Positions 2,313 through 5,030 of a DNA stretch of 5,030 nt are shown here, piece by piece (the stretch's first letter is position 1; every line of letters starts with the position of its first letter). The stretch spans positions 1 to 5,030 of the forward strand of contig JAQUPC010000135.1 in NCBI GenBank assembly GCA_028716765.1. The letters run 5' to 3'. Made by a program: the position numbers and the translations under genes. The stretch comes from Alphaproteobacteria bacterium (GTDB lineage: Bacteria; Pseudomonadota; Alphaproteobacteria; UBA9219). The notes under the pieces were generated by a model. That model saw only the letters and a program-made list of their open reading frames with translations, was not told the origin of the DNA and searched no databases.

Positions 2313-2861
2313 TTAAACCGTCGTAATGTCCTTTTCCTTATGTGCCAGCGTTTCGTCGATCTTCTTGATGTGCTGATCGGTGAGCTGCTGAACCTTGTCG
2401 CTCAGGTTCTTGATTTCGTCTTCGGACGTCTTGGCGTCTTTCTGTTGTTTTTTCAGTTCGTCCATCGCGTCGCGCCGCACATTTCGCACGGCCACACGCG
2501 CGCCTTCGGCATATTTGCCTGCGATCTTGACGATCTCCTGCCGCCGTTCCTGGCTCAGCTCCGGCACCGGAACGCGGATCAGCGCGCCATCAGGCTGGGG
2601 ATTAAGACCGAGCCCGGCCTCACGGATCGCCTTCTCCACCGCCTTTACCAGACCTTTGTCCCAAACCTGAACCGACAAAAGGCGCGGCTCCGGCACGCTG
2701 ATGGAAGCCACCTGATTGAGAGGCATAGGCGAACCGTAGGCATCGACGTGAACGGGCTCAAGCATCCCGGTCGAAGCGCGGCCCGTACGGAGACCGGAAA
2801 ACTCTTTATGAAGGGCGGTCACCGCGCCTTCCATGCGTTGTTTGACCTGATCGAGATTCAT
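2313..2861 (-). CDS. frr: Ribosome recycling factor
   Basis: RRF works with EF-G to split the post-termination ribosome and release mRNA and tRNA in the cytoplasm; it is essential in bacteria. The 182-residue product has close to the usual length (about 185) and two domains. Domain I is a helical bundle made from residues 1-29 and 105-182, and domain II is a small beta domain at about 30-104. Family signatures are LRTGRAS (24-30), PEPRLL (57-62), [10 protein letters not shown] (125-134) and the C-terminal KEKDI (175-179). It starts 4 bases after the pyrH stop, with AAGGA embedded in the end of pyrH 8 bases upstream, showing tight coupling with pyrH as in most Proteobacteria. A 6-bp inverted repeat (2295-2300 with 2316-2321) spans its stop but lacks a T-run, so I see no terminator between frr and the next gene. 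Confidence 0.98.
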
Positions 2862-2865
2862 GATC

Positions 2866-3597
2866 CTATTCCTTATCCGTGATGATCGTAAAACGCCCCT
2901 TGCCTTTCAGCACGTCCGCGAACGCGCCGTGCGTGAAGATCGAGAAGACGATGATGGGAATGCCGCTTTGCCGCGCCAGCGAAATGGCCGACGTGTCCAT
3001 CACCTGCAAATCCTGGGATAAAACGTCCATATAGGTCAGGCGGTCGTAGCGCTTGGCGTTTTTCACCTTCGTCGGATCGGCACTGTAAACGCCGTCGACC
3101 TTCGTTCCCTTCAGCAGCGCATCGACCTGCACTTCCGCGGCGCGTAGCCCGGCGGCGGAGTCGGTCGTGAAGAACGGATTGCCGGTTCCGGCGGTAAAAA
3201 TGACGACGCGGCCCTTTTCCATGTGCCGGATGGCGCGGCGGCGGATGTAGGGCTCGCAAATCGACGACATCGGAATGGCCGTCATCACGCGCGTCTGCAC
3301 GTTCTGCTTTTCGAGCGCGTTCTGCATAGCCAGCGCGTTGATGACCGTGGCCAGCATGCCCATGTAGTCCGCCGTGGCGCGATCCATGCCGTTGGCGGCG
3401 CCGGAAACGCCGCGAAAGATATTGCCGCCGCCGATGACGATGCAAACCTGTACGCCCGAGGCCGCGACATCCCTGATTTCCCCGGCTATGCGATCGACGA
3501 TTGCGGGGTCGAGTCCGTAGTCGCGCGCGCCCATCAAGGCTTCGCCCGAGAGTTTCAGCAAAACGCGTTTGTATTTGACAGATGGGGCTTTTGACAT
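2866..3597 (-). CDS. pyrH: UMP kinase
   Basis: PyrH phosphorylates UMP to UDP with ATP, the first step committing UMP to UTP and CTP synthesis; the bacterial enzyme is a hexamer of the amino acid kinase fold. The 243-residue product has the phosphate-binding KLSGEAL (15-21), the glycine loop GGGNIFRG (56-63), [14 protein letters not shown] (71-84), the UMP-binding [10 protein letters not shown] (137-146) and [10 protein letters not shown] (166-175). The start at 3597 is preferred over an in-frame TTG 18 codons upstream, because AAGGAG lies 6 bases before this ATG and the family begins near MSK...YKRVLLK. The sequence is strongly alphaproteobacterial in character. Normally it follows tsf closely; here two AT-rich genes lie between. 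Its GC content is visibly higher than that of these genes (hand count 40 of 60 bases at 3361-3420). Confidence 0.98.
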
Positions 3598-3603
3598 TCT
3601 CAA

Positions 3604-3609
3604 CTCCTT
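3604..3609 (-). promoter_or_regulatory. Ribosome binding site of pyrH
   Basis: Minus strand AAGGAG ends 6 bases before ATG 3597 and fixes the pyrH start, excluding the longer in-frame TTG start. The 69-base gap to the upstream small gene (3598-3666) shows no recognisable promoter or terminator. Confidence 0.8.
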
Positions 3610-3666
3610 AGGTGCACGGCAGAGACTACAGCCCTTCGGTTGCCACAGCAAGTAAGGCGCCTAGAG

Positions 3667-3957
3667 CTAGAAAGAGTCCGTCCAGCCTGTCGGGAGAGTA
3701 ATAGGAGCTATGTTTGCCGGAGGATTAGGTAAAGCAGGAGACGTAGGCTTAGTACGCGGCTGCTTAGGCACGGGCCGAACACTAAATTGGTTAATAATTA
3801 TGTATTTATCTTTCCAAAGTTGGCCGCGGAATACCCCAGATTCGTCCCACACATATTTTCCTTCAATCCAGCCCAAATAATCCCCGTCCCGAGAAAAAAG
3901 ATATCCATTTGAGATGAACCCAAGATAGGTTCCTGAAGTTTTATAGATGGATGACAT
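3667..3957 (-). CDS. Small 16-residue-repeat protein resembling a 4-fold beta flower domain, proline-rich tail
   Basis: The 96-residue product has an exact 16-residue periodicity. Aromatic positions Tyr5, Phe21, Trp37 (then Ile53) recur in step with Gly9/Gly25/Gly41, Tyr11/Tyr27/Phe43, Gly13/Gly29/Gly45 and Ile15/Ile31/Leu47. The unit is roughly [YFW]-x3-G-x-[YF]-x-G-x-[IL]. Three full units plus a closing strand (52-58) fit a small symmetric all-beta fold, and I recall the '4-fold beta flower' family having this look; the name is from memory, not a search. Residues 60-90 hold ten prolines, followed by a GWTDSF end. There is no signal peptide or membrane segment. The start codon shares its A with the protease stop (TAATG), and GAGGG lies about 9 bases upstream, so the two are co-translated and probably act together. 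Function unknown; a ligand- or peptide-binding partner of the protease is inference. Confidence 0.72.
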   Translation of the reverse strand: MSSIYKTSGTYLGFISNGYLFSRDGDYLGWIEGKYVWDESGVFRGQLWKDKYIIINQFSVRPVPKQPRTKPTSPALPNPPANIAPITLPTGWTDSF

Positions 3958-4706
3958 TATTCGGGACCCTCGCCTTTTTTTGCTCTGTCTGTTTTCTTCA
4001 CACTCGGTTCTTTCATATCTGGTTTAATAATTTCTTTATGATCCGGTATATAAGAAGCGGGTACAGCGTAACCGATGCCCAATTGAACATTTGATATAAG
4101 CGCCTGATAAATTTCCACAAGATCAAGTCCATGTATAGAGATTGCGCCAAGCGACATAGCCTCAACCTTGTTCAGAAGATCCGCTCGTTCCCTCCTTTTC
4201 GCGTTCACTACTCCGAGAATTTCACCTTTTGCATTCATTAGGGGACATCCACTATTTCCCGAATTTACAGTACCATCAATTAGATAAGTTGTAACGCCAA
4301 CCGCATCGACAGTAATTGCTGAAAGAATGCCTTGATGTGTCGTAAGATCATTTAAATTTAAAGGATACCCAGAAAATATAACCGGCATTCCCGCACGAAT
4401 CTCTTTTATAGATTCGTCACTTAGCTGAGGCAGGGGTTCTCGATCAACATCAACTTTAAGCAGAGCGAGATCATGTTCTTGATCTCGTAGCGCAACTTTT
4501 GCTTGATGAAATGTATTTTCATCATCGTCAGAAAATTTGCATATTAATGAATGACTTCCCTCAACGATGTGATCGCAAGTTACCAGTATTCCTTTTTTTG
4601 CATATAGAAAGCCGGACCCTGTACCAACAATGTTGCCAACATTATTGAAACAGTAGAGTTTCGCCACGCTAGGTGAAATCTTTGAGACGATGTCAGAACA
4701 GTCCAT
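3957..4706 (-). CDS. Cytosolic trypsin/HtrA-like serine protease without PDZ domain
   Basis: A serine endopeptidase of the chymotrypsin fold (S1 family, HtrA-like). The 249-residue product shows a full triad: His46 in VTCDHIVEG, Asp79 in EHDLALLKV and Ser152 in GTVNSGNSGCPL, with GNSGCP in place of the common GNSGGP. The core begins almost at once (IVSKISPSVAKLYCF, 6-20) and ends near 217. There is no signal peptide, transmembrane segment or PDZ domain, unlike housekeeping DegP/DegS. Residues 225-249 form a charged, Lys-rich tail. A cytosolic location is therefore expected. The gene is AT-rich against its neighbours (hand count 19 G+C in 60 bases at 4501-4560) and sits between tsf and pyrH, suggesting transfer. 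It overlaps the next small gene by one base. The start at 4706 has a poor ribosome binding site but fits the family's N-terminus. Stand-alone cytosolic trypsins of this kind occur in proposed bacterial conflict systems; the substrate is unknown. Confidence 0.9.
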   Translation of the reverse strand: MDCSDIVSKISPSVAKLYCFNNVGNIVGTGSGFLYAKKGILVTCDHIVEGSHSLICKFSDDDENTFHQAKVALRDQEHDLALLKVDVDREPLPQLSDESIKEIRAGMPVIFSGYPLNLNDLTTHQGILSAITVDAVGVTTYLIDGTVNSGNSGCPLMNAKGEILGVVNAKRRERADLLNKVEAMSLGAISIHGLDLVEIYQALISNVQLGIGYAVPASYIPDHKEIIKPDMKEPSVKKTDRAKKGEGPE

Positions 4707-4779
4707 AAGCTGACCAAAAAGCAGAGCCGAAAGTTACTGGATTAAAGCAGCAATTTTCTCAAACGTCTAGATATGATCA

Positions 4780-4798
4780 TTTGCGAGAGCTTCGCAAA
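4780..4798. repeat. Perfect 7-bp hairpin between tsf and the protease gene
   Basis: TTTGCGA (4780-4786) and TCGCAAA (4792-4798) are a perfect inverted repeat with a 5-base loop. An alternative 5-bp hairpin (AGCTT 4788-4792 with AAGCT 4797-4801) overlaps it, so the two are mutually exclusive. On the minus strand it is followed by TGATCAT, with no T-run, so it is not a typical intrinsic terminator. It lies 74 bases upstream of the protease start and may be an operator or leader structure. No convincing sigma-70 promoter was found in 4707-4867. Confidence 0.45.
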
Positions 4799-4800
4799 GC

Positions 4801-4851
4801 TGAAGCAATACACAATGACTAATATCAACTAAGCAACCACACATTGCTTCA
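4801..4851. repeat. 9-bp inverted repeat with 33-base loop just after tsf
   Basis: TGAAGCAAT (4801-4809) pairs perfectly with ATTGCTTCA (4843-4851); an extra AAGCAA copy sits in the loop at 4831-4836. The outer arm begins 16 bases past the tsf stop and the inner arm ends two bases before the hairpin at 4780-4798. It may be a weak terminator or attenuator for tsf, or a regulator-binding region for the protease gene. Confidence 0.4.
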
Positions 4852-4867
4852 ATCGCAGGAAAACTTA

Positions 4868-5030
4868 TCACCCCGCCATTTTCGCTACTTCCGCGGCGAA
4901 ATCGCAATCAGGAGCCTTTTCGATCCCTTCGCCGAGCTGGAAGCGGGCGAATCCCGCCAGTTTGACGGGCGCGCCAAAGTCCTTGGCTGCTTTTTCCACC
5001 ACCTGCTTCACGCGGCTTTCGCCGTCGACG
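4868..5030 (-). CDS. tsf: Elongation factor Ts, C-terminal end only (start beyond the right edge)
   Basis: EF-Ts is the nucleotide exchange factor that releases GDP from EF-Tu during translation. Only the last 53 residues are in the window: [18 protein letters not shown], then a C-terminal strand region with [12 protein letters not shown] and the closing [11 protein letters not shown]. The FxRFxLGEGIEK segment followed by DFAAEVA is the typical end of alphaproteobacterial EF-Ts. It closes with TGA followed at once by in-frame TAA, a double stop. In most Proteobacteria pyrH follows directly; here about 1.27 kb separates the tsf stop from the pyrH start. The upstream partner rpsB would be expected just outside the window. 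Confidence 0.95.

Follow-up and report, generated by a model that had tools for sequence, protein, structure and literature searches.

A linked serine protease and beta-flower gene pair, probably acquired, at the tsf-pyrH junction of a metagenomic contig

The window, by which is meant the whole stretch of DNA that was analysed (5,030 nucleotides), carries on its minus strand, in this order, the end of tsf, a serine protease gene, a beta-flower gene, pyrH, frr, the gene of an SBP_bac_3 protein, an ORF of 120 amino acids, panD and a GNAT fragment. The features in and around the tsf-pyrH interval are the following.

4868-5030, minus strand: 3' end of tsf, identified by its translation, which matches other tsf C-termini
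4707-4867, minus strand: AT-rich leader from tsf to the protease gene, GC 0.39
4801-4851: 9-bp perfect inverted repeat in the leader, with arms at 4801-4809 and 4843-4851
3957-4706, minus strand: ORF for an HtrA/S1C-type serine protease of 249 amino acids, triad H46/D79/S152
3955-3959, minus strand: TAATG in the sequence, joining the protease stop and the beta-flower start with one base in common
3667-3957, minus strand: 4-fold beta-flower protein of 96 amino acids (PF21784, 45.4 bits) with a proline-rich C-terminal tail that is predicted to be folded
3598-3666, minus strand: spacer from the beta-flower gene to pyrH, GC 0.565; an AGGAG-type ribosome-binding site ahead of pyrH was recognised by eye
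2866-3597, minus strand: pyrH (PF00696)
2313-2861, minus strand: frr (PF01765)

The initial annotation had described a protease and a small protein that lie between tsf and pyrH and overlap at TAATG, and both open reading frames are found there. The overlap amounts to one base, within ...GAATAATG..., and the beta-flower gene is probably translated through coupling at the TAATG. The leader at 4707-4867 contains neither a terminator-like nor a sigma-70-like match, and the fold of the leader as a whole is not notable (z -1.46; 16 of 200 shuffles fold equally well). A search against Rfam at the gathering threshold found no structured RNA in the window.

The protease matches Trypsin_2 (PF13365) with 74.0 bits against a cut-off of 27.6, and the Pfam search gave no PDZ match, in agreement with its earlier description as a PDZ-less trypsin. 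As judged by eye, the enzyme appears to be cytosolic. The PDZ domain is a common peptide sensor in HtrA-type proteases. The triad H46, D79 and S152 is intact in all 120 of the listed homologues, which are the best 120 of 360. Residues ~170-210, ahead of the last strand, make up a strongly conserved stretch of ~40 residues that was modelled poorly (block pLDDT 54-62) and that is read here as a putative insertion. Membership in the DegP/HtrA family TIGR02037 was considered and rejected, as the score was 84.8 bits against a curated 416.2 and a PDZ match was absent. The protease domain also matches the phage profiles phrog_11383 (1.9e-24, unknown function) and phrog_9683 (protease), and related protease domains therefore occur in phages.

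The second product, earlier called a 'small repeat protein', is a member of the Bflower family (PF21784), with its 45.4 bits set against a cut-off of 25; its match to PF21785 lies below the cut-off and no other Pfam family was matched. PF21784 was described in 2023 (Durairaj et al. 2023, PMC10584680) in a paper that apparently gives no tested function for the family and whose main text makes no mention of trypsin. There, beta-flowers share Pfam clan CL0395 with the lipid-binding Tubby-like proteins, to which phosphoinositide binding or scramblase action is ascribed (PMC10584680). The fold expected of the family is a shallow four-fold barrel made of eight short strands. The structural model of the protein has a mean pLDDT of 95.3 and eight strands of at least 3 residues, as counted from the model output. 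The tail is modelled with confidence as well (block means 90-97), suggesting that the proline-rich segment is folded together with the flower. A comparison with solved folds returned no match at E<=0.001. The beta-flower profile gave a weak match to the PucA-LH2-gamma protein of 7zcu (E 0.00058 for the whole, 0.54 for the best stretch), a protein that is itself repetitive.

The tail is conserved among the relatives. Full-length sequences account for 112 of the 121 listed beta-flower homologues, and among these 112 the C-terminal residue is F in 95 and the third residue from the end is D in 98. In the alignment of these 112 sequences, conservation reaches 100% at P77 and N82 and 98% at D94 and F96; position 83 holds I, L or V in 91%, and I, V or T occupies position 86 in 97%. 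Fifteen of the 17 sequences that do not end in F run 1-6 residues beyond that F, suggesting that a free C-terminal end is apparently not what is recognised. Other PF21784 proteins with proline-rich tails, some with RPS/KPA repeats, occur without the protease at loci L087, L089 and L090. Five beta-flower ORFs (P0156, P0166, P0167, P0172 and P0174) carry long N-terminal extensions, which by eye resemble decayed protease tails attached to the flower, and two of the five comprise 14-19 member sequences. P0173 is a single ORF of 251 amino acids with the second half of PF13365 followed by PF21784, either a fusion or a frameshift; since its protease part begins midway, a frameshift is possible and it was not counted as evidence.

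The base composition of the pair departs from that of its surroundings. The GC counts given in the initial annotation are exact (19 of 60 bases at 4501-4560 against 40 of 60 at 3361-3420), and the comparison per gene that it had proposed likewise separates the pair from five neighbouring genes (panD, sbp, frr, pyrH and the partial tsf) in GC3 and in codon adaptiveness. GC is 0.408 in the protease gene and 0.450 in the beta-flower gene against 0.550-0.609 in the five neighbours, and GC3 is 0.304 and 0.423, respectively, against 0.62-0.795. For relative codon adaptiveness, the two genes score 0.447 and 0.451 and the neighbours 0.661-0.777, a contrast that arises partly by construction because the five neighbours form the reference set. 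Among the 1040-base segments of the contig, the one with the lowest GC begins at 3783 and overlaps with the pair, and the segment that coincides with the pair itself ranks 246 of 3991. The GNAT fragment is intermediate (GC3 0.58, adaptiveness 0.586), as is the 120-amino-acid ORF at 830-1192, which has no Pfam or NCBIfam match (GC3 0.52, adaptiveness 0.496).

The nearest order of the window was inferred from a PyrH identity of 76-83% to members of the order of L001; among the best 80 hits, identity to other taxon-named matches was at most 75% and to other phyla 56-64%. The beta-flower was not found at E<=0.001 in 33 draft genomes of this order, in 32 of which PyrH was recovered by the same kind of search. 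Protease matches at E<=1e-10 were present in 29 of the 33 (best 3.7e-17), in open frames of 378-557 amino acids with 31-39% identity. Identities of up to 80% occur among the best 120 of 360 protease relatives, and the matches listed include proteins from Verrucomicrobiota (75%), Rhizomicrobium (75%), Phenylobacterium (71%) and Patescibacteria (66%), taxon names that were taken from metagenome bins and of which individual ones may be incorrect. In a protease tree of 116 rows, midpoint-rooted for drawing only, the window and the Verrucomicrobiota protein share, with moderate support, a clade of 20 rows (82/93). Two named Alphaproteobacteria are found in a separate group (92/78), and the half of the tree that contains the window also contains two Patescibacteria proteins. 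Transfer of the unit apparently took place among Alphaproteobacteria, Verrucomicrobiota and Patescibacteria, the last of these a poorly understood group. The earlier proposal of an acquired module is thus upheld by the foreign composition, by the failure to find the pair in the 33 order genomes and by the relatives in other phyla.

Wider genome sets, each searched without a positive-control genome, gave no protease match in the class of L001 at E<=1e-30 (0 of 385 genomes), in the family of L034 at 1e-35 (0 of 249), or in the phyla of L032 (0 of 297), L058 (0 of 179) and L068 (0 of 2); PF21784 was likewise absent from a further set of 10 genomes without such a control. Several vehicles of transfer were considered and rejected. 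A plasmid origin was set aside since the plasmid collection held no protease match at E<=1e-20, and a phage origin since just 4 phage records matched at E<=1e-10, partially and with 34.3-37.5% identity. No relative was recovered from the viral-contig collection using the protease, the protease alignment or the beta-flower alignment. The attC core of integron cassettes has the consensus RYYYAAC / GTTRRRY, and no such core is present on either strand of the window, so that an integron cassette was also rejected. The ends of the insert are not joined by direct repeats of at least 10 bases, and alignment of its boundaries with the order-mates gave merely 12-13-base matches at chance level.

The recurrence of the pair was evaluated by comparing the listed proteases (the best 120 of 360) with 121 listed beta-flowers (drawn from 33 of 33 and the best 120 of 284). 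For 31 of the 121 beta-flowers, the longest contig is equal in size to that of a listed protease, and on contigs of at least 3 kb this holds for 20 of 47. When the sizes were shifted by 1 to 25 in either direction as a chance control, the mean number of matches was 2.2 and the maximum 6. One match (P0167/P0069) was dropped before the co-divergence test because its two genes together do not fit into 987 bases, and chance may account for about two of the 30 that remain. One pair from Verrucomicrobiota bears the consecutive locus tags QOH39_2479/QOH39_2480. Co-divergence was assessed on 32 pairs, namely the 30 equal-size-contig pairs, the tagged pair and the window. The Mantel correlation between protease and beta-flower distances was 0.59, and none of 5000 permutations reached as high a value, a correlation that could partly reflect shared host ancestry. 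The initial annotation had asked how often the two genes are neighbours, and the equal-size contigs (31 of 121, with ~2 expected), the consecutive tags and the co-divergence all point to a recurrent pair. The gene order elsewhere is suggested by equal contig sizes, with about two matches by chance, and by the one tag pair. The other 90 listed beta-flowers have no shown partner, a number that, given lists of the best 120 of 360 proteases and the best 120 of 284 beta-flowers, speaks neither for nor against pairing. Within the phylum of L001, 7 of 299 genomes also contain PF21784 proteins, two of them as weak partial matches, and no such protease was seen in the sequence covered around these seven loci, up to 1.5 kb on each side. 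The pairing therefore seems to be proper to this subfamily and not to beta-flowers at large.

The junction occupied by the pair was examined in relatives. A firm tsf match was obtained in 32 of 42 PyrH-scan loci, and the tsf-pyrH gap measures 4-213 bp in 30 of these 32; the exceptions are gaps of 433 bp (L002) and 926 bp (L036). The gap of L036 contains, at 5139-5738 and in reverse orientation, Gp49-like and addiction-module antidote genes that resemble a toxin-antitoxin pair. Among 80 PyrH loci there was no beta-flower and no close protease, and three weak protease matches (24-29%) occurred in Slackia loci. The nearest order contributed 30 PyrH loci. Upstream tsf was found in 21, with gaps of 74-1374 bp that reach at least 647 bp in six. 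The other nine gave no match to the probe, the window's 53-residue tsf end, with which a diverged tsf could be missed, and seven of them have 1.45-1.5 kb of upstream sequence. The cargo of the gap varies by genome: L105 carries a pentapeptide-repeat protein (99.8 bits), L104 and L110 carry receiver-like ORFs under the cut-off, and L097 and L100 carry ORFs with no Pfam match. A terminator-like hairpin directly follows tsf in 7 of the 21 order-mates, against a rate of ~1% in mononucleotide-shuffled controls, and the hairpin-bearing loci with long gaps include L096, L100, L104 and L110; no such hairpin follows tsf in the window. Of the order-mate loci L093-L122, 25 have frr, and in these the pyrH-frr gap spans 2-930 bp, with ORFs in L093, L096 and L105. 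In L001, L093, L098 and L120, pyrH is detached from tsf and, by eye, adjoins infB-, ferrochelatase- or ispG-like genes.

In the nearest order, the tsf-pyrH junction thus frequently separates two operons and tolerates insertions. The initial annotation had considered the gene order to be among the most conserved and the pair to lie inside an essential operon. Neither expectation is supported in this order, where the gaps are loose (74-1374 bp) and filled with differing cargo, none of it a beta-flower, and where six of 21 are at least 647 bp, seven of 21 have hairpins and seven loci lack a tsf match. The result at this locus corrects the expectation, in that accessory genes come and go at tsf-pyrH in this uncultured order. 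The position of the pair is therefore explained by a permissive operon-boundary junction without any link to translation or growth, and the pair need have no role in translation.

Composition, gene anatomy, sporadic distribution, recurrent pairing and co-divergence are direct observations, and a linked, acquired protease/beta-flower pair is well supported. The coupled genes and their co-divergence point to two proteins that meet. The reading that we prefer, with a probability of about 0.5, is a horizontally acquired two-gene unit in which the protease is soluble and the beta-flower is its dedicated partner, most likely as a client with a clipped tail. A PDZ-less protease would require an alternative switch, for which the stretch at 170-210 and the dedicated partner would be natural candidates. 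The beta-flower may dock on the protease insertion; on a cue, the protease would clip the conserved tail, with the bond after residue 86 as a candidate, and clipping would open the flower, so that the tail would act as a gate. Taken by itself, the client role is favoured tentatively, at somewhat less than even odds, because the tail is folded, almost invariant and provided with aliphatic residues fit for an HtrA-type S1 pocket. It is also favoured because, in the account of PMC12799240, the trypsin-like protease of Hachiman activates a gated nuclease by cutting after isoleucine, and that of AVAST cuts adjacent to isoleucine. However, the conserved aliphatic residues may just pack the fold, and a structured proline-rich tail does not appear to be an obvious cleavage site. 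A role as inhibitor is unlikely, and any other role more so.

The possibility was considered that the beta-flower is instead a regulator or adaptor, a membrane- or substrate-binding subunit that substitutes for the PDZ domain, with the unit serving as a small protease for stress response or quality control. This role is nearly as likely as that of a client, and tentative in the same way. The protease is HtrA-like with no PDZ match, regulation by a partner would account for the conserved stretch at 170-210, and beta-flowers are grouped with Tubby-like lipid binders of clan CL0395 in the text of PMC10584680; however, no membrane anchor is evident by eye in either sequence, and a strongly conserved folded tail is not obviously required. 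The initial annotation had likened the pair to a conflict system. In such a defence module, infection would trigger the protease, and growth would be halted by the cleaved flower or by the protease itself. The sporadic, cross-phylum distribution, the two-gene form and the known paired trypsin-like protease systems of antiviral immunity, as presented in PMC12799240, are in line with this, and the top PADLOC matches are RT-Protease_XI, LmuA, PDC-S45 and HamA. However, these matches span the protease part only and are partial (the best, 9.6e-21 to RT-Protease_XI, covers profile positions 343-490 of 506), PADLOC returned nothing for the beta-flower and no full-length match to a system gene, and the window has no adjacent sensor, nuclease or helicase. 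The plasmid and viral-contig collections searched gave no close relative, and the phage hits were the four weak ones. A defence role, suggested by resemblance, is regarded as unlikely.

A toxin-antitoxin-like pair, with a toxic protease and the beta-flower as its inhibitor, is less probable again. The overlap of the genes, the small partner and the sporadic spread would fit, but neither sequence bears the marks of a toxin or an inhibitor, and the toxin-antitoxin-like pair in the tsf-pyrH gap of L036 demonstrates just that the site is permissive. Finally, the window appears to be a 5030-base metagenomic contig, its own protease being listed on a contig of this length, and an assembly chimera, or unrelated genes that landed together by chance, had to be considered. 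This is very improbable: in a chimera, two separate joins would have had to put tsf and pyrH back on either side of the insert in the right order and on the right strand, inserts in this gap occur in order-mates as well, an identical beta-flower is present on a 1535-base contig, and the pair recurs elsewhere.

Should a PDZ-less HtrA enzyme have the flower as its client or regulator, as in the preferred reading or its closest rival, this would be a new control mode for that protease class. In either case, the pair gives the flower fold a first likely working partner, and with a recurrent, co-diverging protease partner the role of the beta-flower is therefore testable with two purified proteins. 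A more specific version is a mobile switch in which clipping of the tail by the protease turns a soluble beta-flower into an active effector, perhaps on membranes. This is a long shot; if true, it would amount to a zymogen system of two genes without sequence relationship to gasdermins or pro-nucleases and give the beta-flower fold its first function.

The pair appears to be undescribed in the open-licence PubMed Central papers searched, with known components in a new combination. Its small protein shares the fold family and size of PF21784 proteins and exceeds the curated cut-off of that family (PMC10584680 for the family as described), although the subfamily seen here is tied to a protease, whereas the seven other fetched PF21784 loci are not. 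Compared with HtrA, DegS and DegP (S1C), the protease is 249 amino acids long, has no PDZ match, scores far under the curated cut-offs, contains the conserved stretch at 170-210 and has a partner gene attached. Bacterial gasdermin operons place a small effector beside a protease. The window likewise has a small gene beside a protease, and activation by clipping is possible; it differs in having no gasdermin match in Pfam, and a membrane action of beta-flowers is putative. A nuclease-protease pair of the HamM/Avs1a type was rejected, the partner matching PF21784 (PF21785 lying below the cut-off) and not a metallo-beta-lactamase-fold nuclease. The nuclease-protease pairs of Hachiman, AVAST, Lamassu and DRT, as they are set out by Tuck et al. 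2025 (PMC12799240), resemble the present pair in coupling a trypsin-like protease to a second gene, in recurrent acquisition and in similar gene trees. In those systems, the protease forms a fusion with a defence enzyme, and its partner, a metallo-beta-lactamase nuclease, is typically encoded upstream (PMC12799240), whereas the protease of the window is not part of a fusion and its partner, a beta-flower, is encoded downstream.
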